Source: Mya arenaria
Lineage: Eukaryota > Mollusca > Bivalvia > Myida > Myidae
DNA: 64,000 nucleotides
Direction: 5' to 3'
Assembly: GCF_026914265.1 (NCBI RefSeq)
Contig: NC_069126.1
Coordinates: forward strand, 32,809,346-32,873,345
Shown: piece by piece, positions 20,878 through 62,815 of the stretch
Layout: each line of letters starts with the position of its first letter
Position numbering within the stretch: the stretch's first letter is position 1
Notes under the pieces: model-generated
Told to the model about the DNA's origin: nothing
Databases searched by the model: none
Seen by the model: only the letters and a program-made list of their open reading frames with translations
Translations under genes and position numbers: made by a program

Positions 20878-20883
20878 TTTATT
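20878..20883 (-). promoter_or_regulatory. Candidate polyadenylation signal, locus A
   Basis: TTTATT on the plus strand is AATAAA on the minus strand, about 165 bases after the stop codon of the alpha terminal exon of locus A. Confidence 0.4.
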
Positions 20884-21047: not shown

Positions 21048-21808
21048 CTACAATTTTGCACTGAACTGGAGTGATTTGTACTGGAAGCGGACAACCACCG
21101 AAACTTTCTCATTTTTTGTGAACACAAAATGAAGCACGAACGGGTTTTCTTGATCTTGCCAAGTGAGTATTTCGAAAACATCGCTGACAACGCCTTCCCC
21201 TAAATACTTAATTTCAAACACATCCATCGGGTATTTTCCGATGTTTTCTGAGAAACCAGAGTAATGTCCCTTTAACGCAGCTTCCGTTCCTGCGTCTGTG
21301 CACCATTTGATGTAAATAGAGTTGTTAACGTGACCATTGAAATCAATGTCACTAAACGCTGCTTGAATTTCAAACTTGTAAGCGTCTAATGGAATGCTTG
21401 GTCTGGCAAGTCTTGGAGATGGGGGGCCAAAATGTTGGTTTTCTTTAAGTTTATTGAACCAATCAGGGAACGTTGCCGGTCTTCTCGTCTTAAAATCGAC
21501 GTAAACAAATGTAAGTAAAGCTTTTGCAAGAAAATCCCCAGTTTCGTGCTCCCTTACAATTATTTCAAAACTGAATGCTGATGTTCCGGCATAGAACACC
21601 TTCAGATGAGCATGCATAAGGTAGTTGGTACCCCAATGGGTTTGAGCTTTCAATTTGTTGCCCTTGTCTGACAAATGATACGATGTTTCCGCGTTGAAAA
21701 TAGAATGACCGACGTCCTTAAGCCTGTTGTAGTGGCAAAATCCATTCGGTAGAACAACATATCGTATTGACTCAAACAGTTTTGCCAATGACCAGAGATT
21801 CATCTTGC
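21048..21808 (-). CDS. Locus A alpha terminal exon: acyl-ACP-thioesterase-like double hotdog
   Basis: A single large exon with acceptor 'cgtttcag' before 21808; its phase fits the first exon at 23728-23872, giving a 301-aa product ending FSAKL. With exon 1 it contains two hotdog folds, like plant FatA/FatB enzymes that hydrolyse acyl-ACP to free fatty acid. The first hotdog holds FYAGTSAFSFEI and FVYVDFKTRRPATFPDW; the second holds SDIDFNGHVNNSIYIKW. D204, N206, H208 and E253 (in KYLGEG) match the Asp-Asn-His-Glu catalytic set known from FatB. No signal peptide is evident, so a cytosolic site is likely. No alternative first exon is seen in the 314 bp after the beta stop, so it is probably an alternative terminal exon of locus A. 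Substrate is unknown; acyl-CoA is possible. Confidence 0.8.
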
Positions 21809-21981
21809 CTGAAACGACATAAAAATGATTTTCATTTGGTATTGAGCGGGATTTACACGTTATTAAAAGGACCTTTGAAGGATAGTTCGTAGCGGATGAA
21901 TCTAGTCAGTGGCAAATCCGTAAGCACTATTTGTTTATACATGTACATTAAGCCCATTGGTGTCACGAAATGGTTTTCTAC

Positions 21982-22010
21982 GACCACCACCACACCACAC
22001 CACACCACAA
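21982..22010. repeat. CCACA/CCA microsatellite
   Basis: Short 'ccaccaccacaccacaccac' tract between the two terminal exons of locus A. Confidence 0.7.
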
Positions 22011-22122
22011 TTCTGTAAAAAAAAATGAATACGTGACTCCTCATGTCGTTCAAATATATGTGTTACAAATGTATCACAGTTTCTTTTCTTTCCTCGTGGA
22101 AACATCTAATTCTAGTACTTAA

Positions 22123-23872
22123 TTATAACTTTGAAACCAAATGTGGTGAAACAGCAATTGGTGGTATGTCATGAAAATCTATGCGCATCGTAAAGATGAC
22201 TTTTGCGTTCACTTGTATTGCACAAATGAGTTTCCGACTATCCAGGTCATCCTCCCAAACATTGACCACTGCGATGTCATTGGCCAACGCCTCACCAATG
22301 TAATGGGTATCCATTGTTTTAATACAATATCGTTCTATGTGTTTGTTGTAATTTTTCAAGTTGCCAGCTAGAGCCGCTGCTGACCAAGCATCGGAACACC
22401 ATCTCAAGTATGTCGCCTGGTTAATATGGAAGTTTGAATCGCAGTCGCTCTGTAGAGTTTTGACCTTGTACTTGAAGGCTGTTGTTGGGATTACCAAAGG
22501 GTCAGACTTCTGAAGTTTCTTTGGGTTAGCTACTAACTTCAAATGATCTTCTATTCCCTTTGACACCCATTCAGGGATAGGAATCGGCTTCCTAGTTTTC
22601 CTGCTTACATGAACGGATTTTGAGACCAATTTCACTAACAACCTTTCAGTTACGTAATCTCGCCATTCAATGGCTGAAGTGAATGACGTCCTGCCAACAT
22701 CGGAGATATAGAACGAGAATCGCATTGGCATGTCCATGCCGAACGATTTCTCATAAGAAAAATTGGAATGGTACTGCTGTGTCACCTCAAATGAATGGGT
22801 TGCGAGAAATATTGTTGATTCCCTGGAGAATAGCATTGGTCCTATAAAATTACGCAGACACAAAGCCCGCACGGATTCCAGTATTTTTGCAAAATTCCAC
22901 AATCCTATTTTACCTGTGAGAGTAAAAATTTAGCGTAATAGTATATGTTATTCGTGTATTGGTCAATAAAGTGTCTGGGCTGGTATTCATAAAACATGTT
23001 AAGGCTATTCATAACGTAAGGCCAGTTCTTAAGTGAAGTTTCTCACTGATTATATCATAAAATAACTTATTATTATAATTATGAAATACTTTATTTTCAT
23101 TGATTTTTTGATAATGTCAATTTATATATTAAAACACTAATACTTTTGTTAAGACATTATGGAAGCTGGTTCGGCCCTGTACGTTCTATGTCCATGTGAT
23201 TTTTTTTCTGGGATGAGGAATCACATGACTTAAAGGGGTACTCACATTGGTCACCACTATTCACAACCAAGTTAGTGACGTTAATTTCTAAAAAACTTTT
23301 GTTGACAGAAAGGATCTGAAAACCTATAAAAGACTATGCTATTTTCTGCTTTTTTGCTTGTACTTTAATCATGCAATCCTTGGTCAAAACTAACGGAATT
23401 TTGGAGAACGATGCAACGCTGAAAATTTGGGCAAGGATTGCATCATTAAATACAAACAAATCTAAAATATTTCATACGTATAGAAGCAAAAAATAGCATA
23501 GTCTTTAATAGGCTAGTAAGTATTTTCATATATTTTCTTTCAATTTTTTTCTATAGAAATTATCGTCACTTACATTTTTTGTTTACATCGGATGTGACCC
23601 TGTGGAGACCCAGGTGAGTCATATATAATTATACAGGGTTAATATCGGTGATATAACTTTACTTGTACATAACATGTTATATTTGCGAGAATAAATACTG
23701 TTTTAAAACAAATAACCGAATACGTACCTCCAATCTTCTGGTCAAAGTCTGTATACGTTAAACCCGGAAGCAGTAGCTCTGCAGCAAAACCATCGTCGCT
23801 GATGCGGTACTTAATGAGTCTACCAGGTTGTATGGTCCGTAGGTCGGGTAGGCCGGAGAATTTGGAGTCCAT
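22123..23872 (-). CDS. Locus A beta form: acyl-ACP-thioesterase-like protein, two exons
   Basis: Exon 1 (23728-23872) encodes 48 residues starting MDSKFSGLPDLRTIQPG and ends in phase 1 at donor GTACGT. Exon 2 (22123-22913, acceptor 'tctcacag') completes a 311-aa protein ending HLVSKL. Exon 1 runs into KIGG-K-IGLWNFAKILESV, so the first hotdog crosses the junction and exon 1 is needed for the fold. The first hotdog has VGRTSFTSAIEW and TRKPIPIPEW; the second has SDCDSNFHINQATYLRW. D207, N209, H211 and E256 (HYIGEA) match the FatB-type catalytic residues, although the usual NGHVNN is changed to NFHINQ. Likely an acyl thioester hydrolase; substrate unknown. The alpha terminal exon follows 314 bp downstream and can use the same exon 1. 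Confidence 0.82.
22914..23727 (-). other. Intron of thioesterase locus A
   Basis: AT-rich intron between exon 1 and the beta terminal exon. No further exon copy is recognised. Confidence 0.6.
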
Positions 23873-24062
23873 CTTTAGTCACTTGTAAGGTCTCAATGCT
23901 GAAATAAAACATATTAAATGTAGAAATGGATGTGAGAAAGCGCATGTGTTTTGTGAAGAGACTTACTATACAAACTGAACATTATGGATATGCTATAATA
24001 TTTAAACAAAGCACAGAGACTTGAATGTATGATGCAGACCCTAACAGCTGTCCCTGACTTAC

Positions 24063-24109
24063 TTTAAATAGTTGCCTGTGGCCTCAGATGGTTAAAATCA
24101 GTCTTGATC
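24063..24109 (-). other. Possible 47-nt non-coding 5' UTR exon of locus A
   Basis: On the minus strand a good acceptor (cattttcag) and donor (GTAAGTCAG) bracket 47 bases. Downstream, another acceptor (tttatttcag, 23900-23909) lies shortly before the ATG at 23872, as expected if a 5' UTR intron is removed. This is sequence-based inference only. Confidence 0.35.
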
Positions 24110-25363
24110 CTGAAAATGAAAAAAAAACAACATATTCTATGGCTGCTTATCACGTCATGGGACACAATACAACTATTACTCATGATTTTTCGACGATTTT
24201 TCAACATTCTATAAAATCGAACAAAATCCAATATATAATTGACAATTGTAAATAAAAAACACCTTATATTTGTCATAAATCTATACAAAAATGACAAAGT
24301 AACTGTTATCTTACCGCGACTAACTTACCTTTAATATAAACCATACATATATATACTAACTACAAACACGAATAGCAGTAATCACAACACCTACCTTTAC
24401 GTGGATCTAAATGTGTGTAATATTTAACTCAAACATCCATTTCAAACCGCAGGTCAAAATGTAGTACGCACACGGTCACTATAGAGTTTATAATGAAGAA
24501 CGATCTAAATTTAATCTTTGAGTGTACAATCCATGACAATACTAGGAGAACTAAATTGAACCCAATGTTTAATAAATACAGAGTAACGCGAAATAAATAA
24601 AATGGCTATAATTATGATCAAGTATAAGACCAATAATTTGGTCTGAAATATTACATTATTTCAGCAGTAAATTACGTTCGTCCGGATACAGTTTCTAAAC
24701 GTACCACATAAATAGTTTAAACTACTCACTTCATTCACTTTATACCACGCGGCGGACGATTAATGACGGATATTATAACCTGATTTAAGTAAAAGACACA
24801 TGAGTTGGCACTCGATTCTCACAATGGACAGCGACATACTGACATATCTACTGGGATTATTCAATGGATATATTGATACACAGCTTTGCGTATTAACTTC
24901 TTTTTTTCTAAAGTTTTAGTATACTATTATTAGTATGAAATAGAAAAGTAGTTCGTTCATATGTATGTTATTGTAACGATACAACAATGTCAAATGCATC
25001 TACGTATTTGTATTTGGCTGGTATTAGCGTACTCTGCACAACAATAGATAATGAAATGGTAAGGGCAGGTAACCCAGGCAAGTATTTGTATCAGTAAAAC
25101 TACTATTACGCCAGAAGCAATCAGATGTTGCTAAACGAGTTCTCAGTATAGAACTCGGCGTTTAAATATTTTACGGAAAATGCATAATGAAATACACTAG
25201 GGCTCGCAATCGACAAATAATATATGTTATAATGATTAGTTGGTCCCATATTGTAGGATGGTCAAATATGTAGCATACGTAAGTATTTGCCACTTTACAT
25301 CCCGTAGCATTTCCTTATAACCCTAGCGTTCAATATTCCAAAAAGCATATACTAGTTAGATCC
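24110..25363. other. Upstream of locus A; no gene recognised
   Basis: AT-rich. It should hold the locus A promoter, but no core element can be pointed to. Confidence 0.4.
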
Positions 25364-26927
25364 TCACATGAACAATCTCATGCATGAGTCGGGATATTCA
25401 GTGGACTTCTGACTGCCAGTAACCTTGGTGAGATATATCTTCGTGACGAATCGTTCGTCTTTTAGCATTGCCATTATGTCTTCAATAAATCCCACTATTT
25501 CTGTATCCAAGTCCATGACGGAATTCAACTGCTTATACCCGACACTAAAATATTTCTTTCTTTCTCTTTTACGTACAAGGTACACTGGGGAGTTGGACTC
25601 CAACTTTTCTTTTCCGGCCTTTTTCTATGATGACCCTAATCTGCAACAAATTTTGCACATCTTTCTCAATGCCAACCTTCTTGGCATATGTCATGGTATA
25701 TTGATTAATCTTACTGGTTCTATGGCAATGAGCTCTATAATTCAGCATATAGTCCTTTAGTCCTATAATGTTGATTATTCTCTAGGTTCGCACTGGCTGG
25801 TACTTTCGATCGTATGGTTTAAAACTATTTCAACAAGTCTCCTTCTTGTTGTTTTTTCTACTCTTTTGTACAACCTGTAAGGCTTTATGTATAATAACAA
25901 GTACTTATCTCCCCCGTCCTTTGACTCGTTAAAGCTTTTCATCATTGACTCGTTAAAGCTTTTCATCATCCTCTGCGCACTTTTATTCAACTACAATGAC
26001 TGATACAATTCAGCTTAATCCTGTCTCATATTTCGTCTGTAGATTGATATAATACAACACATTGTTGTTTCTCCGATCTTCACTTCTCCATCCGTCGGCA
26101 CCACTGAAACTGCCAATGACTTTGTTGTTGTGTTCTTCCTTGTCTGTTGTAATGGTGTTTCTTTCTTCCAATCTGTTGTGGAGGTTAATAACGTATTTGT
26201 ACATAGTTCATACGTACAATGTATGCATCGCCCTCTTACTGTCTGTAAAGATATTCTGATGGTGAGAAGCATGTGCTTGCTTGTGTGACATCACGCAGTT
26301 TACGGTACACAAACGACATTGCGGACAAATATGTCTGTCACAGTAATTTGGCTTATCCTGGCATATTTTTAGCAAGCCTTGCAGTACGCCATTCATCTGC
26401 TCGCAAAACCCATTGCACTTAACTTCGTATGGTCAGGGGCATTATTGAAACCGTTTGAATTTTATGCCAGCATACTTGAGAGCCGTGGAAATGTGAAGGT
26501 CTTGGTTTCTCTAAATGTTATTTGAGGTGAAAGCGGGACAGGTATCCCCTGCCATTGTTTGTGTTTGAAGAACACAATTATGAACCGTGTTCAAGCATTC
26601 TAAACGCCAATCCAAATTTAACGAATAAAACGTTGTTTGTGTATATAACTCATTAGTGTTTAGTTTTAAGTCCCCAGTAGGAGATATAAGCACATGGCTT
26701 ATATGAGGAACCAAAACTGATTTATACACCCGAGCGTATTTGCGCATGCCTAGGTACGCCCCTGATAGTGTCGTGAATATCTGCCACACAGATACTAGCC
26801 AAAAGACTTCACGATGGAGGTAAATCGGATCCCCATGACGCTCAAAACTATGGATTCTGTCAACCAATGATTCGGCAACTGGTCCCGTCTCTATGCGGAG
26901 CAATGCAACGGGGTCTGGATATTTCAT
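25364..26927 (-). mobile_element. Fossil LTR-retrotransposon-like fragments (Ty3/Gypsy type)
   Basis: Two protein-like patches are visible on the minus strand: a reverse-transcriptase-like patch at about 25364-25800 and an integrase-core-like patch at about 26511-26927. The element is old, heavily broken with many interruptions, and no LTRs are recognised. The integrase-like patch lies upstream of the RT-like patch, which is not the usual Ty3/Gypsy order; rearrangement or two different elements would explain it. Confidence 0.5.
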
Positions 26928-28418
26928 TGTATATTGGACAACAGTATCTGTTCATTAGGAAGATTTCAGCGAGATAAAAACGTATTTGTTATTGTCATTT
27001 TTGTGAAAGACGATGCCTATGGTTATTATTCCCTTGCAGTTTTTGACGCGGTTGAGATGCTACCTTCGTCAGGCTAAAATATTCTGCTCCTGCAGACGCG
27101 TCATTTTGTCTAATGACGTTTGCATTAAAGTGCCTGCTGTATAGAACAGGTCTTTACTCAACATTCTATATACCCCAGGACTGACAGACTCTTATATGGT
27201 TAATCTATTTTGGACATATATATTTACAAACAAGTAATGGCCTAATATCAACATATTCGCAGTCAGTTTAACGAAAATAAATGATATTGTTGACATGTAG
27301 TCATCTTTACACTACTTTTCAGTAATGTTTCCAAATCGCTATGTGCAGCTTGCTGACAATTCGGCTTTTATGGAAACCAAATCACGTGCAACTATATAAT
27401 AAACGATTAGTTGGTGTGCCTTCAAAATGGTTACAGTGTTTAAACGGTCAAGGTTTGCAACAAGTCTTACTTTGATGCAATAAGCGGCATAATAAGTTAT
27501 AGTTTCATCGTATAGGATGATTTAGATGTAACAGAGGGTTATAAAATTAAATAAATATATATATTGTTCATGTCCACACAACTAATGTACCCACTTTGTT
27601 TGAATTCCATCAACCTACAGTCGTATCACTCCGCCATCTATCGGCTATTTTAGTACGCTCGGAATCTGGTCGGTACGTTACGGGTTTTACTCGGAACTGT
27701 AAACTACCTTTTTGGGACGGGTAATCCTTAGTTTTATTACTTATTTTAAGAAGTCTTCTTGCAGTTCTAACTTTCGGTGTGACACTCTTCTTAACATATC
27801 ATAGCTTAGTTTGTATTACCAAAGTTTTTGCAGTGAATGTACAGGTCAACGATAACTGGAGTTTTGACAACCTCAGGACTATCTTTTGGGCATGATGGGC
27901 ACATTTCATTATCAGCTTTGTTTCTGACCATTTTACAACTTTGACGGGTATATATTTATATATATATATTAGTTCATTTTACAGCGCTCTTTGTGGTACT
28001 GCAATAAATACTATTTCACTATATAGTCGTTTTGCTCGTTTAGTGTTATACTTAACGCCCCTACTGGCCCGCTCCTCTTTATGAAATCGGCTGCAAAACC
28101 TTTAAGTATGGAACATCATGCACCTGGGCATTTCATAGTTTATGGAAATAATATCTTTAACATGGAACAATGCATATCCCCCTCTTCAGGTCACGTGAGA
28201 CTTGTCAACCATACCCTGCAGTAAATTCAGTACTTTGATTATCAGTAAAATATGTTCACTGTCTCCATCAATCGGAACCCCTCCGGCGGCCAGTATAAAA
28301 CAGAATCTCGAAGTTTAACGGAGATGGCCGAGTTATTACGATTGCCTCTCCATATGTTCGCTTCACTTTATCATTGAAATGTTTTAACAGTGTTAAGTAA
28401 TGCTTATTTTTAATGCCT
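26928..28418. other. No gene recognised; possible further fossil material
   Basis: Short minus-strand open stretches occur without recognisable domains. An AT dinucleotide tract lies near 27952-27970. Confidence 0.4.
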
Positions 28419-30379
28419 AAGGCCACAACAAATTGATCATTTGTTCTTCGGATTTGCCGCAACTAATATTCGAAAAACGAAAAAAAAAGAATTTTTTTGC
28501 GCCCGCACATACTTTTTGGCCGCGCATATTATTTTTTTGTTTACTTCTGAATTTCCTCTACTTCCTGAAGTTCTTTAAATAAAATTTAAACCTGCAACGT
28601 CGACTTCGCCTTTTTTTGAAAGTATTTCTATGCTTTACATTCTTTGCGAGCAAAATTTCATCGTGTCAGGACAAAATCAGGTCCGGGTAACCGCAAAACA
28701 GCCGATATTTGTTGACAGTCTTTTTTGTCGGGAATGTTTTGCAGGACGCACCGTTGTTATTCATTTCCGGTATTATTCAGGTAACCTTCAGTTATCGTAA
28801 TGTAAAATACACGCTTTAAATGAAAATCAGTGTCATAGTCAATGGATTATAGTCTTCAGTAAACAACAACAGTTTCACAGCGCCGAAGGCAATAATTATT
28901 TATGTGTGTTTTAGTAATTCATTGTTTTGTACTCAAAATTTAGTGTTAAATAATAACTAAATCGGATTTTAAAATAACACAGTTAAACAAAAACAACTAT
29001 GAAACTAACAAATGCCTAGCTACACCTAGCTGCTCAGGCAAGCCATAATGCAACTTTATGTTGTAAGGTTAAAACAATTCTGTCGAGTGTCAAATATTGA
29101 GCAACACAGTTTAAAAAGCTAAACTCCAAGTAATTTATTTTTAACTATCAAATATCAGAGAACTTTCACATCTCAGTTACAATAATCAAGTTTTAAATTG
29201 AAAAACCTATATGAAAAATGTGAGTGGCCCACAGGGAAACCACGCACTACCTTAACAGAGTCCAAGAATGTAAAAATGGTGAAGGTACCGTCAGAGGACA
29301 GATAACTTACTGAAACTAGTTCAGTCGGTCTTTAAGTAGAAAGAAAAACCAATCCAAGTATGGTTTATAAAATGTGAATATTAATACAAGTAGCACAGTT
29401 TAATTTGGTTAAAAAATCAACCAAAAGACAAAGCTAAACAACTTTATAAAAAGCTCATTCTAAAATGCATTTCTCAGTTTTCATATACTCATAATTGTTA
29501 TAAACAGATAAAAATAGTAGGACTTGTAAATGTGTTAAAATATCCCCCTCCCCCCATCCAGGGTCCGGGGATATACCAGGGTTAGCCGGGTGAATGTGGT
29601 GGATTTACCCGGGGTTGGCTGGACTGAAAGTTCAGTAAAGTGGCCTGTGATTAAAGTGGCCTGTTTCTTACGGGCATTAAAGCTATGGAGGCCGTCATGA
29701 TATTTTTTTTCAAGACACGGACCTTAAACCGCAGGTTCATGGCAAAGGCGAGGTCTTGAAAGGAAAACGTCTTTATTCCACCACCTGCTCTTATATAATG
29801 ACCGGTGCAACATTTGCAGATTTGTTTGGTGCTGCTTGAAGTTTGAAGTTGCAATGTCAAAGTCACTACAATTTTATCATGTGCTTTAAGAGGTTCAAAT
29901 TTAGACCTGACCCAATATTTCGAAATGCTCAAATGTTGAATTACTCTGGCAAGTCTAAAATGTTTTTTGTGATAGTAAGTTACGGAATGAATACAAAAGT
30001 TTTGGTCTTCGAATAACTGCACGTTAACTATGAGGAATGTTGTCTTTACAATATATCCACGTTTAAATTGAACTTAATAGTTAAGCACTGGATCTTATTG
30101 CCATTTGTTAAATATTGAGATAGATTATCATGTGATACAATCAAAACCTTTTCATTCATAACTGAGAACCTATGTTTGCAATTAAAAAGCATTTCTTGAT
30201 TGTATGATAAATTTGGTAAGAAATAAAAAAAATAAAAAAAATTTTTTTTCGCTTTGCGCTCGCCTCTGAAATGCCTTAAATAATTTTTAAAAAAAAAGTA
30301 GTTTCTTTTTTCGCTCGCTCGCTCCCACTTTTTTTTGGCAAAATCCGTAGAACAAATGATCAATTTGTTGTGTGGCCTA
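28419..30379. repeat. Inverted pair of a dispersed repeat end
   Basis: 'ggccacaacaaattgatcat' plus 'ttgttct-cggatt' at 28419-28458 recurs inverted at 30337-30379, followed inward on both sides by A-rich sequence and CGC-rich words (gcgcccgc on the left, cgctcgctcgctc on the right). It is either a ~1.96-kb TIR element or two separate copies facing each other. The space between has no recognised gene; it includes the decayed MITE at 29541-29640. Confidence 0.55.
29541..29640. mobile_element. Decayed relative of the GC-rich MITE
   Basis: It shares 'ggtccgggg-atata-cagggt' and 'ggctggac-gaaagt' with the element at 17748-18051, in the same orientation, but is shortened and lacks recognisable TIRs. 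Confidence 0.6.
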
Positions 30380-30514
30380 ATGAATGTGTATACTTTTTCG
30401 ACAACGTTCATCTTCTTCACAGTAAGTTATAATATTGATTTTTGTAGAAATGCTTTTATACAGATTTCTGCCTGCCGTTCACGAAAACTGTGTGCAAAAC
30501 TAATTAACATTTAA

Positions 30515-30868
30515 GTGACACTCACTACAAACACAAGTGTATTTAAACATTAATTGTGACTTATAAACCTTTAACTTCTTACTAAATAATGCATTTATGG
30601 AAATTATTAATTACTGATAAGAATATAGTAACCGTGTATTTAATGACAGAAAGCGCAAAAAGTATAAAATAATTAATTGGTGAATGCTTAAAGATTTACT
30701 GTAGTCTACTATAGTCTTATAAGGTGGAAATACTGTGTTTTCTGCTCATTTCTTTCAAATCAAACTCGGTATCCTTCATAAGAACCATTATTTTCGACAT
30801 TTGTTCATCCCTTTAGGAAAATCAAAACAATATTATTTATTGTGGTAAATCTTATTTGGGAGTAATCT
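30515..30868 (+). mobile_element. TTAA-MITE family 1, copy 2
   Basis: Flanked by TTAA at 30511-30514 and 30869-30872. The left end GTGACACTC matches copy 3; the right end is shortened ('gagtaatct'). The body aligns over ~350 bp with the other copies. Confidence 0.8.
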
Positions 30869-31334
30869 TTAAAATACAACAAAAAGACAAATGATTGTAT
30901 TGAAAACCTAAGCCTACAGTTTAACGCAGTTAAATAATATTTTGATACCCCCCCCTCCCCCGCCGCCCCCAGCGCAACGCCCCCACCCCACCCGATGAGA
31001 TGAAAACACATTCGTTTCCTTTTGTTTTTATTCGCATGTAACATAAGGGTAAATGTCGCTTACATTCTAAAAAATAATTCAGCACGTGATTAGTTTAAAC
31101 AGCGCAAATACTGTCTAATAAATATAAGCGAAAGAAAAATCAATTATTTCCCGTCAGCTAACCCAGTGCAGTAAGAAACGTAAAACTTAAACATATTTTT
31201 TATTAATTTTGAAATGTACATAAGCAGTTTCTCAATACAGTAAAATTTGATATAAACAATATAATATGTACTTTACAATACATGTCAGTTGGTAGATTTA
31301 TAAATATACGAACAGTCACATTTACAACAATCAA
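30869..31334. other. Downstream of thioesterase locus B, C-rich tract
   Basis: A C-rich stretch at 30950-30990 ('cccccccctcccccgccgcc') lies in otherwise AT-rich sequence. No alpha-type terminal exon is found here, unlike loci A and C. Confidence 0.5.
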
Positions 31335-32279
31335 TTACAGCATTGACTCTAAATGGGGAGACACATCAACTGGAAGAGAATCATACATATCCACGTGCAT
31401 AAAAAATACTACTTTTTCACATACTAGAACAGCAAACATAAGCTGTTTCCCGCTCTTCCCACCTTCCCAAACGTTGACGGTGACAATATTGTTAGCATGG
31501 GCTTCTCCCAAATAATGCACCACTATGTCTTTCATTTGGTATCGTTCTATGTGTTTGGTGTAATTTTTGAAGTGTCCTCTAATAGCGCCCAAAGAAGCTG
31601 CATCTGAGCACCATGACACATAACTGGCTTGATTTATATGGTCGTTGGAATCACATTCGCTGTGTAGAGCTTTCAACGTGTGTTTGAATGCATTGTCTGG
31701 TATAACAACCGGGTCAGGTTTTTCAAGGACTGTGTTATCCTTGATACACTGCCGATGCTCGTTTAATCCGTGCATATCTGGAATAGGTTTCGGTTTCCTT
31801 GTTGTTTTATTAACGAGGACAGCTTTTGTCGATGATTTAACAATCAATTCTCCAGTTTTGTTGTCTATCCACTCGTGTGTTACAGTATAAGAAGTGTTTC
31901 CTATGTGGGAAACGTAATAATAGAAGCGAAGCGGAGTAGCTACACCACAGCAGGCTTCGTACAGAAACCGCTTTTGGTAGAAAAGAGGTTTGAATTCTAT
32001 TCTGCGCGTCGCTACGAAAAGAGTCGTATCCTTTGTGATGTATGTTGGAGCGAAAAAGTTACCAATGACGACAGAACCCACGCATTCTAATAGCTTTGCT
32101 AGACACCACAATGAAAGTTTTCCTAAAATATAAAAGACAATTACATCAAGTGTTATTATTCATCAGCGTCATTATGCAAATTGTGTGCAGTAACGTATAT
32201 TAACAAAGAAGCAAATATGGTGTGTATTATTGCTAAAACAAATTTACAACATGGTCGAGTAATATTGTGACAAAATTTC

Positions 32280-32315
<36 letters not shown>

Positions 32316-32599
32316 ATGCTTTTTCTGGTCACATACTTTTTTGAAAAAATCAGCTCACTAGTAATATTAAACGCTGACATCTAAATAAAATGTTTTCCTA
32401 TTTTTGCAAAGTTATTGTGAAAGAATATCATTGAAAATTAAGCAATACACGAACCACCTATTTTCTTGTCAAAGTCTGTATACGAGAACCCCGGAAGTAA
32501 CACTTCTGCAGCAAACCGGTCAACGCTAACACGATACTTAATGAGTCTACCTGGCTGAATACTTCCTATGTCTGGGTAACCAGAGAACTTTGTATCCAT
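31335..32599 (-). CDS. Locus B beta form: acyl-ACP-thioesterase-like protein, two exons
   Basis: Exon 1 (32455-32599) starts MDTKFSGYPDIGSIQPGR and encodes 48 residues plus one base. Exon 2 (31335-32122, acceptor 'atattttag') gives a 310-aa protein ending HLESML. Hotdog 1 includes IGNTSYTVTHEW and TRKPKPIPD; hotdog 2 includes SECDSNDHINQASYVSW. D206, N208, H210 and E255 (HYLGEA) match the catalytic set of plant FatB. The donor after exon 1 reads GTTCGT, weaker than GTACGT/GTACGC in the sister loci; an upstream GTGGTT would also keep phase and drop one Gly. Only the beta-type terminal exon is present. Probably a thioester hydrolase; substrate unknown. Confidence 0.8.
32283..32312. repeat. (AG)15 microsatellite
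   Basis: Perfect dinucleotide run inside the intron of locus B. Confidence 0.95.
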
Positions 32600-33067
32600 T
32601 GTTTTAAGTGTCTTTCTGTTTCCGCAGTCAGTTGACTTCTTTACACTTCATGCACATGTACGTAGTTGGTTAACCTCCGAAAGTATGTCAGTACTTTGGT
32701 ATTCAATTTTAAACTTGTATCAACTCAGTATAAATATCCACCAGATATCAAATAGTTATGACCCATGATGGACATATTCAAAGACACGAGTTAAAATGTT
32801 AACGAGTCTAGTTCACATTCTCGTACGATCTTATCCAAAGATAAACATAGTTCACATTCTAGGACAATCTGATCCAAAGATAAACACTTGTATGCGGTAA
32901 GTCCATTTACATGTTTAAGTTAAAGGCTAGTAGTTCAACTTATATGGTCACTATTTCATTTATTTGTTATTGATATTACGACGGTGCCCAGCTAGGACCT
33001 CCGGTGAGCAGAGACAAAAACGAGATTTCAGGCCTGGAGCATGCTCATTAAAGTCATACTAAATCAG
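32600..33067. other. Upstream of locus B, nothing recognised
   Basis: Probably contains the locus B 5' UTR and promoter. A two-copy word 'agttcacattct' occurs near 32810 and 32850. No exon is recognised. Confidence 0.4.
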
Positions 33068-33272
33068 TTCAACTAGCAAAAATTATATTTTACACACACT
33101 TCAACATGTATATCATCAATATAATACATTGCCTTAAACATAAAATAAGATTTGACATTCTTCACTTGTTTCATATTACAGTATAGGGTACTTTTGAATT
33201 TTGTCAAATCTCATTTTATGTTGATGATATACATGTTCAAATGTGTGTAAAATATTATTGTGGCTAGTTGAA
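33068..33272. repeat. 205-bp foldback (large imperfect hairpin)
   Basis: The left arm 'ttcaactagc', 'attttacacacac', 'acatgtatatcatca' and 'agatttgac' is repeated as the reverse complement in the right arm. The arms are ~80 bp with a short centre; the left arm has ~16 extra bases. No coding capacity; a foldback/MITE-like element is likely. Confidence 0.75.
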
Positions 33273-33639
33273 ATGATTTATTATGACTTTTATGAGCCTT
33301 TGTCATCAAGCCATTAAAGGTACAAAGCCACTTTCTTAGACGAATATACGGGTTATGCAAATACCCTAAGGAAAGGTAATTATCCCAAACAACCTTTGCA
33401 AACTCGTATCTTAAAGTAAGCTGGAACATGGTATCTACACTAGCAACAATTTCTACTTAATACACATGAACGGGGCATTGGAAGGTTAGGAGCATTGAAT
33501 ATAATCGTGGCTTTGCTCCACCCAAATACCCCAAATGAATTCCAAATCATGCGCAAAATCTATAGTCTGTCATACGACTTCACAAATACAGAAAGCTGGA
33601 GTGTGACAGTGATCGATTGAGCGCAATTAACGCGGAACT

Positions 33640-33849
33640 GCTCAGGTAGCTCAGTGGCAGGGCGTACGCCTCGGAGCGGAAGGTCGTGGGTCGCAAACCC
33701 TGGTCACGTCAAACCGATATACGTCAAAATATGGTACCTGTATATCCATTGCCTATCGCTCGGCATCTAAGCGTAATACTGGGAAAAGGGTGTACTCGGT
33801 ACTGGTTCAACCCATGAAAGTTGTATCACGACGATAAAGAACAAAGAAT
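33640..33849 (+). mobile_element. tRNA-derived SINE-like element
   Basis: The 5' part resembles a tRNA, with an A box (TAGCTCAGTGG, 33646-33656) and a B-box-like GGGTCGCAAACCC (33688-33700) 32 bases later. About 140 bases of unrelated body follow, ending 'gacgataaagaacaaagaa'. As a tRNA gene it would not fold well and continues past the acceptor end, so a Pol III-driven SINE is the better call. LINE partner unknown. Confidence 0.65.
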
Positions 33850-36102
33850 TCTCTTCACAAATAGCTAGGGTTTCGCATCCGGATCTCATGTTAATATCAG
33901 GATTTGACTGGAAATTACAGTCATTTCTATCTCATGTCACTTATGGCATTTATACACCATTAAAGTTGTGATGGCGTCACGGCGGTGTCAAGCCATAATG
34001 AAGGCAAGAGGCGAGGGGAGAACTGGATATTATCAAATAATTAAACGCAGACTTCTAAGGGGCGGGCTAATACACCCACAAAGAATACATACATGTACAG
34101 TTTGCATTCGTTTCTTGTGACTTATTGTCCGACATGGCTTTTGGGACAATACAAACTGACTGTCTCTTCGTTTCAAAAAGGCATTATGGTCGTGCTTTTA
34201 TTGGCTTATTGATGATTACGCTTTGAAATGTTTATATGCAAACAGAAGTATATTCGCTACATTATCGGTATATTCCGAGTTAGTCCTGTGGACATAAACG
34301 GTGATTGGAAATCCATAACATACAATGTTTTACAGATCCGCGTAGCTCAGTGGTTGTATGCATAATAAAAAAGGATGCAAATCCGAATCCGGCAAAGATC
34401 ATTTTTTGTTACGCTATTTTTTTAACGATATAAAACCATATTGTTTTCTTATATAATATCCATGCGTGATTAAATTGATTTAGACAAAGGTGAAAAAAGC
34501 CATTTCATTTTTGAATTTTAATAGGCTTTGACACTTGGATGTTTCCAAAAAAATCACCATTCATGGACTTGACTGAGAGGAAAACTAAACATGGATATCA
34601 GTAGTGGTTTATGGTTTATAGATTTTGTCTACCTAATAGTATTTGCTTTAATGAAAAATCGGCAATTACTAAATATTTGATTTAAGCAAAACGGTAATAC
34701 GTTTAATAGGCTAATATAGTGCAATTAGTGTTTACCAACACAACAGAGGGATTTATTTGAAGAGATATGTCAATTACCACTACTTCTTGTTGCTTTATGA
34801 ACATTAACAACCTGTTTTACATACATTATGTATCTGCCTAATTATTTAGTGCACACTATTTCAATACTTAAAATATGCTACCCTTCTGTTTATTAAACAT
34901 CAATTTTGATCATGTTCCGGTTATACGTTAGTGCTTTTAAGTGTTTTTGGCATTTAATTACAACTGCTTTTATTTAGTATCATCACGCCTTAAAAGGGCT
35001 GGTTTGAAATGATATAGCCTTATGATTTATTAACTTTTCTAATTCATGTTACAAGTCTATGACAAAAATCACTAACCTGCATTAATTGTTATAATAACGC
35101 CTTCAAATGGCCCAAAATACCACTGAAATATCATATAAGAGCGCTGAAAGCGTTGAAAGACTGTAGGCGCGACAAGCATTTAAGCGAATCTAAAAAAAAT
35201 TGAGTGGACCCAAACTGTAACCGATAAGTATTTATGCAAAAAGCTGCAGAAACAAGCTCAGTAGCAAAACGTTTAAACATAAACCCGGTTCAGTGGCACT
35301 GGGCAATAAATATTTTTATTTTATTTTAAATTAAAGTTTTAACTCAGATGAAGAATACTTGGTGTGTTAAACATATGTTAACGAGAGTATAATTCAGAAA
35401 GTTTTTATATTAATGATAGGCAAATTCATACGGATAGTGACCAAGGTTGTTTAGTATTTTGTTCCAGTTATTGAAGCAAAACTATATTATCCTAGTATGA
35501 ATCCAATTAGTCTCCTCAGAGCGCTAGACTTTGTCCTTTACCTCGTATATCCTAGTAATAACACTATAACAAATGGCTCATTATACTAAAATAATGTATT
35601 TATCTCTTGCCTTATGAACTATAGCTTTCTTAGTACCATAATAAGAAACATATACTAGACCGGTTTTTAAGAACAATGTTAAATTTAACAACGTTGAGGA
35701 GTTCAAACGGCTTATAATTGTCAATCCTGAAAAAAATAGCCCGGAGTCTGTTTAAAGGATTCATGCCCAAAGCATGACAAAGAGGCTGAGTCCTCTTTTT
35801 TGAAATTGTTTCCAAAGTCATTCATATTCGTTTCAAGGTACTTCACACTGTGTTTGTTGCAAATGTCCGAGCAAAAACCTTTCTTTACAGCTGGACAATA
35901 TTCTGAAGTTCTCTATTATGACAAGTCTGGATATTAAGACCTCTGAACGCTGTCAACGGCATCATTATTAGCTTTAAAAGGTGAAACATCAATGATGTCT
36001 CACAAGTTTAAATAAAACAAGCACATAATCATACTATGAAATAAAATCTCTCAAAGTTTGTTAGACGTATAACAGATTACTAGTGTATCGATGAAACTTT
36101 AA
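33850..36102. other. AT-rich intergenic; one weak tRNA-like patch
   Basis: At 34335-34402 'cgtagctcagtggttg' resembles a tRNA A-box region and 'aaatccgaatcc' a poor B box: probably a decayed SINE head. Nothing else is recognised. Confidence 0.45.
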
Positions 36103-36680
36103 AGTGACACTCTTATTCAAAATCAATACATAAACATGTATAACCAACATCAATTTTGACTGATAAACCTTTAACCACTTACTAATTGTGTTGTGTTTAT
36201 GAAAAATATTAATTACCGATAACAAAATAGTAACCGTGTATTTTATAGCAGAAAGCGCAAACTATTAAATGGTTGGTGAATGCTAAAAGATTTACTATGA
36301 TTAACTAGTCTCATAATGTAGAAATATCGTGTTTGCTGTTATTTAATGTAATTATACTAACAAATTTAGCTATACTTCTATATCTTATAATGACACCCGA
36401 ACAACTATAGGATGTTATTCATGTTAAATTGCTCCAGAACATTGTATTTCTGTACTTTTTCCATTCATTGTATTGTATGTTATATGCTATGAACATTGTA
36501 TAATGTTTTACGCAATAAACTTATCGTATCGTATCGAGTTTAATGCTGTTGTTGTTTTTTTTCAAATTGAACTCGGTATCTGTAATAACAACCCTTGTTT
36601 TCGACATTTATTCATCCTTTTTGGAATTTAGAACAATATTTTAATTGTGGTAAATCTTATTTGGGAATAAGAGTGCATTT
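36103..36680 (+). mobile_element. TTAA-MITE family 1, copy 3, with a retroposon inserted
   Basis: TTAA flanks lie at 36099-36102 and 36681-36684. The left TIR AGTGACACTCTTATTC pairs with the right end GAATAAGAGTGCAT. The ~365-bp body is split by an insertion at about 36341-36536. Confidence 0.85.
36341..36536 (+). mobile_element. Truncated retroposon 3' end inside a MITE
   Basis: It ends 'gaacattgtataatgtttta', 'cgcaataaac', then a TATCG tandem tail; the same 3' end is at 9399-9460 on the other strand. 'tgctgtt' occurs on both sides (36334-36340 and 36544-36550) and may be the target duplication. 5' truncation is inferred because no ORF is present. Confidence 0.65.
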
Positions 36681-36684
36681 TTAA

Positions 36685-37018
36685 TGGTAGGAAATATTTG
36701 AAAGTTAACAATAATGACGTTAACAGAGTTGTTAACTTTAACAAAGTTCTGAACAATTGTCGAGTATTGGACAAGTTTTTGCGACATTTACTAACGTTTA
36801 GTGTCATTACAACACCCACAATCATAAAAGGAAACAGTTTAATATGCCACCAGAGCTTTATTTGACAACTGAGTATATCAAACAAAACATAATGATAGGA
36901 CCAGACCATAGGATTCCAGTATCATACGACAATAACAATAACACATCATTTTAGTTCACCTTCAAGTTTTGAAAACACCCGTAAGTTTTGACAGAACAGA
37001 ACACAACAGAACACAACC
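36685..37018. other. Downstream of locus C
   Basis: AT-rich; a short AGAACA/CACAAC repeat lies at 36993-37016. No gene is seen. Confidence 0.5.
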
Positions 37019-37785
37019 TTACAATTTAACTTTTGGTTGATATTCCAAAGATAAAAAGATAAATTTTGCAACTACTGCTACTTTGCTTTCTTTTGAAATT
37101 ACAAAATGCAACACAAGATGATTGTCCTTGTCTTGCCAGGTGCTGATCACGACAGGTTCATTGGCCAACACCTCTCCAACGTATTTCAATTCAAAAGTAT
37201 TCATAGGGTATGTTCCTATGTTTCCCTTGAATCCAGAGTAGTGACCCTTCAGGGCCGCCTCCGTTCCAGCATCCGTGCACCATTTCACATACACAGACTG
37301 GTTAACATGCCCGTTGTGATCTATGTCACTAAACGCAGACTGCAGGTCAAACTTGAATGCTTCATGTGGAATATCTGGCGTAACCAGTCTCTCGGAAGGC
37401 TTTGTAAGTTCTTGCCCTTCTTTGAGCTGATTGTACCAGTCAGGAAACGGGCATGGCTTCCGTGTTTTGAAATCAACGTACACAAATGACATCTCCGCTT
37501 TGACAAGAGTCTCGCCACTCCTATAGTCGCTAAGCAGGATGTTAAAGCTGAATGCTGAGGTACCGGCATAAAATATTTTAAGATTGGCCAGAAAAGGGGT
37601 GTGCAATCCCCAGTAAGAGTGTGATGTAACCTCATTGCCTTTATCGGTGACTTTGTACAACGCACTGGCCATAAACATGGAATGCCCATCGTCCTTTAAC
37701 CTGGGAAAATGACCAAACCCTTTAGGAAGAACCGTAAACCTTATTGCTTCAAAAACTTTCGCCAATGACCAGAGATTTAGCTTTC
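37019..37785 (-). CDS. Locus C alpha terminal exon: acyl-ACP-thioesterase-like double hotdog
   Basis: A large terminal exon with acceptor 'aatattgcag' before 37785 in the phase needed for exon 1 at 39063-39207, giving 303 aa ending QPKVKL. It is clearly the counterpart of the locus A alpha exon: KLNLWSLAKVFEAIRF, FYAGTSAFSFNI, FVYVDFKTRKPCPFPDW, and SDIDHNGHVNQSVYVKW in the second hotdog. D204, N206, H208 and E253 (KYVGEV) match FatB-type catalytic residues and have the same numbering as in locus A alpha. Only 147 bp separate the acceptor from the beta stop codon, leaving no room for a promoter and first exon, so use of exon 1 at 39.2 kb by alternative splicing is the simplest reading. A frame open upstream of the acceptor is intron, not coding. 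Confidence 0.8.
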
Positions 37786-37932
37786 CTGCAATATTCAAAG
37801 GAAAGTGAATGGTAATTTTATCACAACAATAAAAACAATTGCAAATATGGTGTAGATTAATTAAACTCCGCAATCGCTAGAGTGAAAAGCGCTGTATCTC
37901 TGGTCTAGGCAAAACGTTTGAATAAAGGGAAA

Positions 37933-39207
37933 TCACAATCTTGCTTCAAGTGCGGGCGGAACAGCAACTGGTTCGTCGCTGAGAAAAGTCATTTGCATTT
38001 CAAAAACGGAACGTCCATTAACTCGAACAACTAGATCAAGCCCATATTTTCTTTCACTAGTCTCCCACACAAACACCTCGATTATATCGTTCACATTTGC
38101 CTCGCCAATGTACTGCATTTTCATCTCTTTTACAAGATATCTTTCGATGTGCTTTGTAAATGACTTAAAATATCCCTGCTTTGCACCATTAGCGGCCGCG
38201 TCCGAGCACCATATAAAGTAACTGGCTTGGTTTACATGGAGGTTCATGTCACAATCACTGTGCAGTGCTTTGGTTTTGAAACAAAACGCTTCATGTCCAA
38301 CTGACAATGGTTGACTCTTTTCAAGTTTTCGAGCTGGTAATAGCCTCAAGTGTTGCTTAAGACCATTGAAAAATAGCTCTGGTATTGGAACAGGTTTTCT
38401 GGTAGATTTGTTCACGTAAACCACTTTACAGATATTTCGCACAAGTAGTTGGTTTGTCTGATGGTCTAGCCAATCAACTATTATGGAATAAGAACTCTTT
38501 CCAACCTCGGACACATATGCAGCAAATTTAAAGCGTCTTTTTATGCCGAAGCTTTTGTTAAAGCGATACATCTCCCCATGGAAATCAGGCTGAAACTCGT
38601 AGACTTGACTCACCACAAACAAGGCTCTGTTTTGTTTGCGAACCATACTGGGGTAGTGGACAAAACCATGTTTGAATCCCTGCCATCGAACGGACTCTAT
38701 CAATTTCGAGATAGACCAGAGATACAGCCTGCCTGTTTAAAGTCATAAGAAATTACAGGAAAACATCTAAAGCTGGCGAATATCGTTCTTAGATGTAAAA
38801 CAAGTTCTTAATAACACAACACCTTTAGATTTCAATATAAGCCTGTAATTTCGAATCAAAAAGATTTTAAAAAAATACAAACACGACTAATGATATGTTG
38901 AATCGATGGAAGAATTCGTTAAACAGACTAGTCAAGTTGTCCATATTTACAGTTATCTGCAACTAAATATAAACAACACTAATTTTGAAATTTTGAATCG
39001 ATGAAAGAATTCGTTTAACAAACTAGTAAAGTCGTTTTTACAGTTTAATTTAATTAGCGTACCTCCGATTTTCTGGTCAAAGTCTGTGTATGTGAAACCC
39101 GGCAGCAGCACTTCAGCAGCGAAGCCATCATCGCTCACCCGATACTTTATGAGTCTTTCTGGCTGGATACTCTCTAGGTCCGGCTGGTCCGAGAATTTCG
39201 TGTCCAT
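37933..39207 (-). CDS. Locus C beta form: acyl-ACP-thioesterase-like protein, two exons
   Basis: Exon 1 (39063-39207) begins MDTKFSDQPDLESIQPER and ends at donor GTACGC. An upstream in-frame ATG exists, but sister loci start at MD-KFS. Exon 2 (37933-38732, acceptor 'tttaaacag') gives 314 aa ending PPALEARL. Hotdog 1: VGKSSYSIIVDW and TRKPVPIPEL; hotdog 2: SDCDMNLHVNQASYFIW. D210, N212, H214 and E259 (QYIGEA) match the plant acyl-ACP thioesterase catalytic set. Upstream of the ATG an acceptor 'tttttttccag' (about 39274) suggests a spliced 5' UTR. Predicted soluble acyl thioester hydrolase; substrate not deducible. Confidence 0.82.
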
Positions 39208-42200
39208 TGCCAAGACCAGACAATGTAATGCAAAAACAGTCAAAGTGTACGCGCCCTTGTCTTGTCGTCATCAGTTCTGGAAAAAAAAGAACATAATAAA
39301 CATTAAAAAACTGTATCAATTGTACTGGTATTAAAAATGCACAATAAAGGAATTGTGAGGACCAATAGCGTCTTTTATCTATACAACATATTGCGACTGC
39401 AGTAGAATACTTATGTAAGTTAACATTAGGTTTCCGAATAAAGTCATACTGAGGATTTTGTTTATGTATTAAACTCTATAAAATAAATTTTATTATATTG
39501 TAATGAAATATAATGATGTTTGAAATCAAACTTCACAGCAATTTCTGCTCACTTTCATACGCCTCTTAGATTATAAAAGTATTGGAAATTAAGTGATGTA
39601 AGAAAAAAGGTAGATACTGGTAAAATGGAAAGTTGCAATCTGCTTCAACAAAGTAAAAATATTTTTTGTCATTATGTATGATCTATGTTTTCTTAAGTTT
39701 TGAAGATAATTTCTGATTAATATTGATTGTGACCACGCTACTGTTAATTCAAGCGATAGTTAGGCCGCGCATAGACCGAACCCGTTAAAAATGTTATTCA
39801 GCACCGTATTGTTTGCAAACCCTAAGTTGAAAAGGGGCCATCACTCCATCAAAAATAAATGCATTGTAACCAAAGTCGAACTTGACCCACATTGTAAACG
39901 TGTGTACCAAACTACGTTAACCCTTTCATGATTCATCCACTGAGGGTTATCTCAAAATTACTTTGGACGAACAAGATGACTGCAGAAATCCACTCTTTTT
40001 GGGTGAAAATTTAGATAGCAGAATAGGCGCAGAGTACCCGCATAATACCACAGCTTACTAATGTGATTTTTTCGTTTTATAGGCCTGAAACTCGTTACAG
40101 ATTTTAATTATTCTCGTATATTGTCTGAACAAGACTTTATTTGGGTTTTTCAACACAAACTTCAGATATTTTGCATTAATTCATATTAAATAATAATACC
40201 TTTTAGAATGAAGCATTCGTGATAATGTTCTAATAATGCTCTGCTTTTAAACAAAAGTTCTGAGCCAGTCCACATTGTAAATTGTGGTATGCAGGTTATA
40301 CTTCAATGAAAACGTGTTCCAAACAAATTGTTCCCGCTCTAATACATTGCGCTTGTAAAGAGGGTCATGGAGATGGTTGAGAAGCCAGGCTTTTGGGGAC
40401 AGCAAATATGTCTTATTTGGGAATTTTGTCTTGAAATTGTGAAAAAATAGAGATATTTGGCATCGAGTATGGGTCAGACATTCTGACCCGTTAGATGGGC
40501 AGAACAAGAATGTCTTGTCCTGTGAACTGATCTGTGAGATACAAGTTAGATTTATCACTATTCTCAATACAAACCACGTCACTGATAAAAAACAGGGTCA
40601 CACTCTTAATTCTTATTCATCGAGTTTGGGAAGCTTTAAAGAATTGTTCCGATTTTCGAATGACTTCATAAATTATTATTGGAGAAGAGTTTTTTTGGTT
40701 GCGATGCTTTGTAAAGCGGGGAACAAAATGATGAGTTCATAGGAGACAGCATTGGCATCATTTTTAAAAGTCTTACACCATTTGGACATTTGGCTTGGGA
40801 AAAATGAGTTTTCCATTTTATAGTTTAAAGTTGAGATGATTTGGATGTGTGCGAGTATCGATGAGATGTATTTTGTTCAGATTTTTTTTCTGTCTATGCA
40901 ACGACAATGACTATTTCTTAGGGAATATCATAAAAGAAAATATTAATAAGCTTATGTTAATGTACGGTTACAATGATAATAAAGAAGCATCAAAATGAAT
41001 AAAAATAAATTTAACTTTATATCATTTAAAGAAAAAGATGCTTTAAAATAGTGTTTTCATTTTAAAACCCATAGTTTCCATGTTGATGTGTAGAAAATAC
41101 ATCGAAAGCGTAATTAAATCAACCTAGTAAGATGATTCTGTAATATGGCCCCTCGACATGTAAATATCGATACTGTATAAATGGATACATGGAAACATAC
41201 ATTTTAGTAGGTCCCTTTGTTAAACGAATATAATAATCATTCATAACATAACTAAACCATATGTACTGTATACAAAAGAAACGTGGATCAATCTTAAATC
41301 CGACCGTTTTGTTGAGTGCACTTTCTTCGTACATATAATATGCTGGTGGTACTGCACATTGCAATTTGCACAGTAATGAGCTGCCAGTACACAGAGTCAG
41401 TATTCAGTAGTTCATGCATTGACTGCGGGTAGCAGTAAAGGTATAATACAGTGCGATGAGAATTAATTTATTACCTTGATTGGCACAGAGTTGAACATTG
41501 TTAATTTAATTATAATGGCATGCTTACCCTCCGCCTTCTTCTTGACATATTATGGTTCAAAATCTAGATCGACCCTGGTAAATTACCCGCAAGAAAAAGT
41601 AGTTGAATGTGAAAAGGTCAAGTAGCATACAATTAGTCAACGCTGAGACATTGTTACTTACCTAACAGTAGATTGATAAGTGCCACCATACAAAACAAGT
41701 GACAATAGGTACTGAAATATCATATCGCTAAATATTGTAAAGCATCTTTAATTTTAAATATTTTTTTTGGATTTTAAAGGGACGCGTTCATGTTTTTGGA
41801 CCAAAAATTAGTTTTCCCGGTACTGATGATGGCATCTGATGCACTAATTCCATCATTATTTGACTCTAAGGTATCGAAACTGCAGCTAAAATATAATCAA
41901 AGTTTAAACAAATAATTTTGTTTTTAGTTGGGTGTGAACCCACTCCGGAATAGTCAAGAAAAATAGAAAAAACGGCCCCTTAACCGGCCTAATACAAAAG
42001 AGTTAAATATGCTGAAGGGTTCCAGCTGTCAGTTTCTAATTTTAATACACCTAAAGATTTGCCACACTTTATTTTGTAATAAAAATACAATTTACAAACC
42101 ATGAGCGAGTCCCTTTTACCTCAATGCACCTTGAATAATTTAAATGTGATAAAAAACAGAGAAAGAGAGAAGAAAAATATTTTTAAAAAGAAGTTAATAG

Positions 42201-50739: not shown

Positions 50740-51105
50740 AGATGCACTTTTATTCCCAGATAAGATTTACACAATTCATAATATTGGATAATATACAAAA
50801 AGGATGAATTAATGTCGAAAACAATGGTTCTTATGAATGATACCGAGTTAATTTTGAAAGGAATCAGCATGAAAGACGGTATTTCTACCTTATGAGACTT
50901 TAGATGTTCACAGTAAATCTTTTAACATTCACCAATCCTTTAATATTTTATTACATTTATTCCATTAAATACATGGTTACAATCTTGTTCTCAGTAATTA
51001 TTTTTTTCCATAAATGCATTATTTAGTAAGTAGTTGAAGGTTTATCTGTCAAAATTGATGTTTGTTAAACCTGTGTATATATTGATTTTGAATCAAAGTG
51101 TCGCT
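50740..51105 (-). mobile_element. TTAA-MITE family 1, copy 4 (best preserved)
   Basis: TTAA at 50736-50739 and 51106-51109. Ends AGATGCACTTTTATTC and GAATCAAAGTGTCGCT are imperfect inverted repeats. 366 bp, no insertion. Confidence 0.9.
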
Positions 51106-62455: not shown

Positions 62456-62815
62456 AGATGCACTCTTACTCCCACATAAGATTTACCACAATTAAAACTA
62501 TTGTTTTATTATTCCAAAAAGCATGAATAAATGTCAAAAACAATGGTTCTAATGAAGGATACCTATTTTTACTAAAGGAAATGTGAATAAGTATTTCTAC
62601 CATTTGAGATCAAAGTAAATCACAGTAAATCTTTAAGCATTCACCAATCATTTAATATTTTTGCGTTTTCAGCTATTAAATACACAGTTACAATCTTGTT
62701 ATCAGTACTAAATATTTTCCATAAATGAAATATTAAGTAAGTAGTTAAAGGGTTAACAGTCAAAGTATATGTTTGTTATACATGTGTATGCATTGATATT
62801 GAATAACTGTGTATT
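62456..62815 (-). mobile_element. TTAA-MITE family 1, copy 5
   Basis: The AGATGCACTCTTACTC end is on the left; the right end ('gaataactgtgtatt') is decayed and followed by TTAA (62816-62819). The left TTAA is not preserved. The body aligns with copies 2-4. Confidence 0.8.

Follow-up and report, generated by a model that had tools for sequence, protein, structure and literature searches.

Can one short coding exon serve as the start of two different enzymes? This question is raised by three thioesterase-like loci of the bivalve Mya arenaria, which form a minus-strand tandem array within 21-39 kb of a 64,000-nucleotide (nt) stretch of contig NC_069126.1 (forward-strand positions 32,809,346 to 32,873,345 of assembly GCF_026914265.1; the whole stretch is referred to as the window, and positions are counted from its first letter). 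In transcriptional order, the loci are here named C, B, and A. Loci A and C each consist of a 145-nt coding exon (exon 1) followed by a proximal (beta) and a distal (alpha) terminal exon, both of them enzyme-sized, and locus B consists of exon 1 and beta only.

We consider it quite probable that in loci A and C cis splicing joins exon 1 to either the beta or the alpha acceptor, wherever the 3′ end of the message may lie. The donor of exon 1 would be joined to the near acceptor (beta) or, when beta is skipped, to the far acceptor (alpha) of the same transcript, and each of the two genes would give rise to two tandem-hotdog thioesterases. Because each terminal exon carries its own stop, the beta and alpha products would exclude each other. 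We favor this reading because the same anatomy and phase recur in two loci whose silent sites are nearly or fully saturated, and because a search of good power found one exon 1 per locus. A first-pass annotation of the same sequence had proposed a choice between two alternative terminal exons behind a fixed start; of this, the single start exon with two enzyme-sized ends remains the arrangement best supported by the DNA, and the part that needs amending concerns the switch, which may be a choice of acceptor with one 3′ end.

Anatomy and conservation of the three loci

All features of the loci given here and below lie on the minus strand. Exon 1 spans positions 23872-23728 in locus A (48 codons plus 1 base), 39207-39063 in locus C, and 32599-32455 in locus B, and is 145 nt long in each. 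In A and C it ends as GGA G/gtacg, that is, one base into a Gly codon. The beta exon extends over 22123-22913 in A and 37933-38732 in C (acceptors at 22913 and 38732), and the alpha exon over 21048-21808 in A and 37019-37785 in C (acceptors at 21808 and 37785). All four acceptors carry AG and are in phase 1, the alpha exons have the same phase and the same Gly junction as the beta exons, and each alpha exon follows the exon 1 of its locus after 1.3-1.9 kb, with no change of strand. The acceptor of B beta, at 32122, likewise carries AG and is in phase 1. Both alternatives end in stop codons. When joined to exon 1, the terminal exons give frames with a single terminal stop, encoding 311 (A beta), 301 (A alpha), 314 (C beta), 303 (C alpha), and, with the beta exon of locus B at 32122-31335, 310 amino acids (B beta). 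The gap from the beta stop to the alpha acceptor measures 314 nt in A (21809-22122) and 147 nt in C (37786-37932). The exon 1 coordinates, the acceptors, their common phase, the separate stops, and the gap sizes had been given for A and C in the first-pass annotation, and all of them held on inspection. In locus B, no alpha exon was found downstream of beta.

The earlier term "first exon" holds for the coding sequence and may not hold for the mRNA. A noncoding exon may precede exon 1, because acceptor-like sites lie just upstream of it in A and C. The candidate spliced 5′ leader of locus A (23873-23898, 26 nt) is weak, with a middling acceptor-like site, and adjoins the start codon; that of locus C (39208-39276, 69 nt) has the top-scoring acceptor-like site and contains one upstream ATG at 39271.

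The conservation of the exons was assessed by Nei-Gojobori counts of the proportions of nonsynonymous (pN) and synonymous (pS) differences. In comparisons between loci, pS of the terminal exons reached 0.79-0.84, which places their silent sites at or near saturation. The alpha exons of A and C retain 58% amino acid identity over 252 codons, with a pN/pS of 0.33 (95% interval, 0.26-0.40), and the three pairs of beta exons give 0.41-0.49, alpha being the better conserved terminal exon. Exon 1 is the most constrained part by these counts, with a pS of 0.70-0.77 and a pN/pS of 0.13-0.15 (0.14-0.15 for A versus C and B). Judged from the codons, alpha is under purifying selection, because the 58% identity has been kept despite silent sites that are at or near saturation. 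These data bear on the possibility that one of the terminal exons, alpha or else beta, is a relic gone out of use, as might be suspected from locus B with its missing alpha. Five open frames, catalytic positions invariant in all five products, and pN/pS values of 0.33-0.49 at nearly saturated silent sites speak against disuse, and in view of the selection data we regard it as the least likely of the rival explanations, with a very slim chance of being correct.

In an unrooted tree of the five terminal exons, the two alphas were grouped with a bootstrap value of 100, and A beta and B beta were split from the others with a value of 90; alpha and beta are 26-32% identical to each other. A duplication into alpha and beta that is older than the loci would fit this pattern, alpha having been lost, or never copied, in locus B. 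Outside the exons (in introns, gaps, and flanks), A and C shared only matches of 10-15 nt with E values of 0.08 or worse (plus strand, E ≤ 1), and B and C shared one 13-nt match between the intron of B and the gap of C (E value of 0.008). The 3′ flanks of B and C are 84% identical over 109 nt, which does not point to a recent duplication, as this segment is part of a dispersed repeat of approximately 345 bp. Copies of the repeat, 74-84% alike and one of them in two pieces, occupy five places in the window and are found in both orientations (30522-30865, 36146-36670, 619-926, 50750-51085, and 62466-62796), including places downstream of loci B and C.

Fold and catalytic positions of the predicted products

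All five terminal exons matched the Pfam family 4HBT_2 above its curated cutoff of 25.5 bits, with scores of 36.6-47.4 bits (37.2 for A beta, 43 for A alpha, 47.4 for C beta, and 44.9 for C alpha; the locus B query carried nine extra residues from its intron). Four of them also exceeded the cutoff of Acyl-ACP_TE_C (21 bits), B only just (21.2), and A beta scored 18.7. The N-terminal Acyl-ACP_TE model was passed by none of the five terminal exons (at most 16.2 versus 23.7 bits, with no match listed for A beta); four of the five joined products matched it at an E value of ≤ 1, the best being 0.011. The model of YbgC/FadM acyl-CoA thioesterases (NCBIfam TIGR00051) was matched by all five at an E value of ≤ 1 (best, 1.9 × 10−5), and its cutoff was missed, the member shown scoring 24.4 versus 68.7 bits. 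A profile built from the joined products and compared with the PDB retrieved acyl-ACP thioesterases, with a best E value of 4 × 10−9.

When terminal exons were modeled by themselves with AlphaFold2 (alpha of A, beta of C), the models showed a helix and four strands, a linker, and then a strand, a helix, and four strands. Alpha and beta are alike in this respect: hotdog 2 is complete, and strand 1 is missing from hotdog 1. When either type of model was searched with Foldseek, FatB/FatA and bacterial acyl-ACP thioesterases ranked first. Furthermore, residues D204, N206, H208, and E253 of A alpha are invariant in all five products; D-x-N-x-H with a downstream E presumably constitutes the catalytic positions of Umbellularia FatB. 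The products share the tandem hotdog fold and the D/N/H/E positions with the FatA/FatB enzymes, but they are only 13-19% identical to them in structural alignments and fall below the cutoff of the N-terminal family model. With moderate to low confidence, the models point to tandem-hotdog thioesterases that are closest in fold to FatA/FatB.

Exon 1 would accordingly encode the first 48 residues plus one base of the codon for Gly49, presumably including the first strand of hotdog 1; the rest of that hotdog, the linker, and a complete hotdog 2, in which the catalytic positions lie, would come from the terminal exon. That the first hotdog crosses the exon junction had already been proposed, and the absence of strand 1 from both types of terminal-exon model, parts of which are of low confidence, is in line with it. 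Searches for relatives returned 34 pattern matches in viral contigs, none of them confirmed, and 386 in prokaryote genomes, among which one weak bacterial relative was confirmed (28% identity over residues 139-221).

Start exon, acceptors, and 3′ ends

A tblastn search of the 64 kb, for which the exons 1 of loci A and C were the queries (E ≤ 1), recovered the three exons 1 and two short plus-strand matches of 20 and 16 residues (E values of 0.51 and 0.70). The power of the search was measured by placing diverged copies of exon 1 in the gap of locus A, with the true exons masked, in 40 trials per level of identity. All 40 trials recovered the copy at each of 70, 60, 50, and 40% identity, as did 38 of 40 at 30%; within this power, which applies to relatives of exon 1 and not to a start exon of unrelated sequence, no second exon 1 relative was found in the 64-kb window. 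As exon 1 is 75-81% identical between the loci, far above the detection limit, a relative specific to alpha would be expected to show. The earlier statement that there is no second first exon is thus borne out for exons of this kind.

The splice signals were scored with an approximate matrix. Among the AGs considered, the acceptors ranked first and second of 79 in C, first and third of 103 in A, and first of 20 in B. The donors scored 5.5 in A, 4.6 in C, and -1.7 in B, or 0.6 if exon 1 of B ends three bases earlier. Locus B, which also lacks alpha, has a poor donor at either of these two phase-compatible positions (32455-32460). A comparison of introns, gaps, and flanks found no element conserved between A and C that might steer the choice of acceptor, and Rfam gave no match in 20000-40500 at gathering thresholds. 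A fusion of beta to alpha was also considered. A beta has a donor-like site after 22296, in the beta frame, and C beta has one after 38614, in a different frame; the fusion was rejected because the two sites do not correspond in place and, on visual inspection, neither has a counterpart in the other locus.

An AATAAA hexamer follows the last stop in all three loci, by 165 nt in A (20878-20883, after alpha), 131 nt in B (31199-31204, after beta), and 157 nt in C (36857-36862, after alpha); AATAAA within 170 nt was found at 1088 of 5000 random places. Neither AATAAA nor ATTAAA occurs in the two gaps between beta and alpha. This gives a weak hint of one 3′ end after alpha that both messages share, and not more than a hint, because gaps lacking both hexamers are common by chance. 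A single poly(A) site after alpha would probably serve both messages, and in the beta message the alpha exon would then belong to the 3′ untranslated region. We propose tentatively, giving it somewhat less than an even chance, that there is one transcript with one 3′ end and that acceptor choice alone picks which of the two divergent enzymes is built. What such an acceptor switch would involve is put forward with the same reserve: a nearly frozen 49-residue start, and a 3′ untranslated region of the beta message that holds a full alpha coding exon, would have been kept in two loci while their silent sites became saturated.

Several observations weigh against the joining of exon 1 to both terminal exons, or against parts of it. 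On the protein side, a single product searched alone against the PDB gave weak matches only, some of them to unrelated proteins. The predicted local distance difference test (pLDDT) score of the alpha A model was 63.4 in one of five models and 33-39 in the others, with residues 150-191 below 50, and that of the beta C model was 68.5 (40-68.5 over the five models), with the first 31 residues below 50. By hhalign, no sequence likeness was found between hotdog 1 and hotdog 2. On the DNA side, the beta and alpha acceptors score alike, and nothing that we observed accounts for the choice of the far alpha over the near beta. The second codon of A alpha is an in-frame ATG, and a start inside this exon is thinkable; C lacks it. 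Both hexamers were missing by chance from 2328 of 5000 random stretches of 314 nt and from 3471 of 5000 of 147 nt, variant hexamers are present in the gaps (TATAAA at 21939 in A and GATAAA at 37822 in C), and AATAAA also occurs at places where it ought to have no effect, namely, the intron of A (23095) and the beta exon of B (31811).

The ATG in A alpha is of a piece with an account in which alpha and beta are separate genes: exon 1 would be used by beta only, and alpha would have an unrelated or upstream first exon or, in A, an internal start. The enzyme size and own stops of the terminal exons agree with this, as do the 37 pairs of an ATG and a phase 1 donor that each of A and C contains in the interval from exon 1 to alpha. 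However, most of the eight best-scoring pairs per locus fall within the beta exon and none resembles exon 1 by eye, alpha shares its phase and Gly junction with beta, and the spike-in search, with its recovery of 38-40 of 40, found no second relative of exon 1. In addition, neither the first 35 codons of C alpha nor the open stretch preceding them contains an ATG. We consider separate genes distinctly improbable.

The variant hexamers lead to another account, in which alpha and beta are alternative last exons and each message has a 3′ end of its own, the beta message being cleaved in the gap and early cleavage settling which of the two is used. The products are the same as under the cis-splicing explanation that we favor, of which this is a variant with a different switch. 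It draws further support from the observation that homologous terminal exons most often accompany multiple poly(A) sites, as described in PMC3228551. The contrast between gaps devoid of AATAAA and ATTAAA and the AATAAA after the last stop in three of three loci speaks weakly against it, and we judge this variant unlikely, though a serious candidate. Finally, the three tandem donors of exon 1 would allow trans-splicing, in which an independently transcribed alpha receives its exon 1 from another transcript, as in Drosophila mod(mdg4). Yet each alpha shares a strand with the exon 1 of its locus and lies close 3′ of it, cis splicing is enough, and nothing demands a reaction in trans, which we hold to be very improbable here.

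Surroundings of the loci and comparison with known systems

The GC content of the window is 28-40% in 2-kb steps, and the setting is animal-like, with receptor and Tc-type transposase open reading frames. The former (53463-54776) is a single-frame rhodopsin-type receptor of 437 residues. The latter (11543-12475) encodes a Tc3-type transposase helix-turn-helix domain and is overlapped by a reading frame in another frame (12369-12728) that by eye looks like its continuation. A minisatellite whose 28-bp unit is repeated about 102 times, and which is open in several frames, occupies 46408-49245, and upstream of locus B lies an inverted repeat (33043-33297) whose 82-nt arms are 89% complementary.

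If the proposed junctions are true, annotations of this thioesterase family are likely to be wrong, either omitting alpha or dividing the locus into two, because usual gene models expect a single terminal exon per start. The loci would also provide a clean case in which a shared part of one domain has to fit two diverged partners, and they would represent a small family of animal thioesterases, similar to FatA/FatB, in which splicing determines the product. Our search of the literature, which covered it in part, found no report of thioesterase genes with a shared start exon and alternative ends. A giant-clam paper names "acyl-acp thioesterase" among its contigs, with no link to the present arrangement.

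Common 5′ exons with alternative 3′ exons, as seen here, are described for Drosophila mod(mdg4), with the difference that trans-splicing operates there. The lola gene likewise has common 5′ exons and alternative 3′ exons. Both genes encode regulatory proteins with a separable BTB domain, whereas the shared piece in the present loci would be part of one hotdog domain.

The extent of the swap also sets the loci apart from human capping protein beta and Drosophila myosin heavy chain, as approximately 250-265 of the 301-314 residues would be exchanged here and the known cases of homologous terminal exons are reported to swap much shorter ends. Homologous terminal exons that are used singly form a described class, which mostly involves multiple poly(A) sites and sometimes differential inclusion; as outlined in the same source, the homologous 3′-terminal exons of capping protein beta encode the stop and are tied to multiple poly(A) sites, the terminal exons of myosin heavy chain encode the stop and are differentially included, and strict mutually exclusive exons form a cluster that is flanked by further exons on both sides (PMC3228551). 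Swaps of homologous exons are reported to be ancient and over-represented at the protein level in human data (PMC4465641).

The layout of a shared start with alternative ends is already known from other enzyme genes, and by analogy the thioesterase loci resemble GSTD1 (aggst1alpha) of Anopheles gambiae. In that gene, variants reportedly share one 5′ coding exon, some 45-50 codons long, that is spliced to different 3′ exons, each encoding the rest of the glutathione S-transferase (GST). Measured against this layout, the present loci likewise have one shared coding first exon, of which the 64-kb window yielded no second copy, and two homologous terminal exons in the same phase with their own stops. 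GSTD1 differs in belonging to another enzyme family, and here there are two tandem loci with two terminal exons each. GSTD1 is a single gene that produces four alternatively spliced enzyme variants (PMC2588609, citing Ranson et al. 1998).

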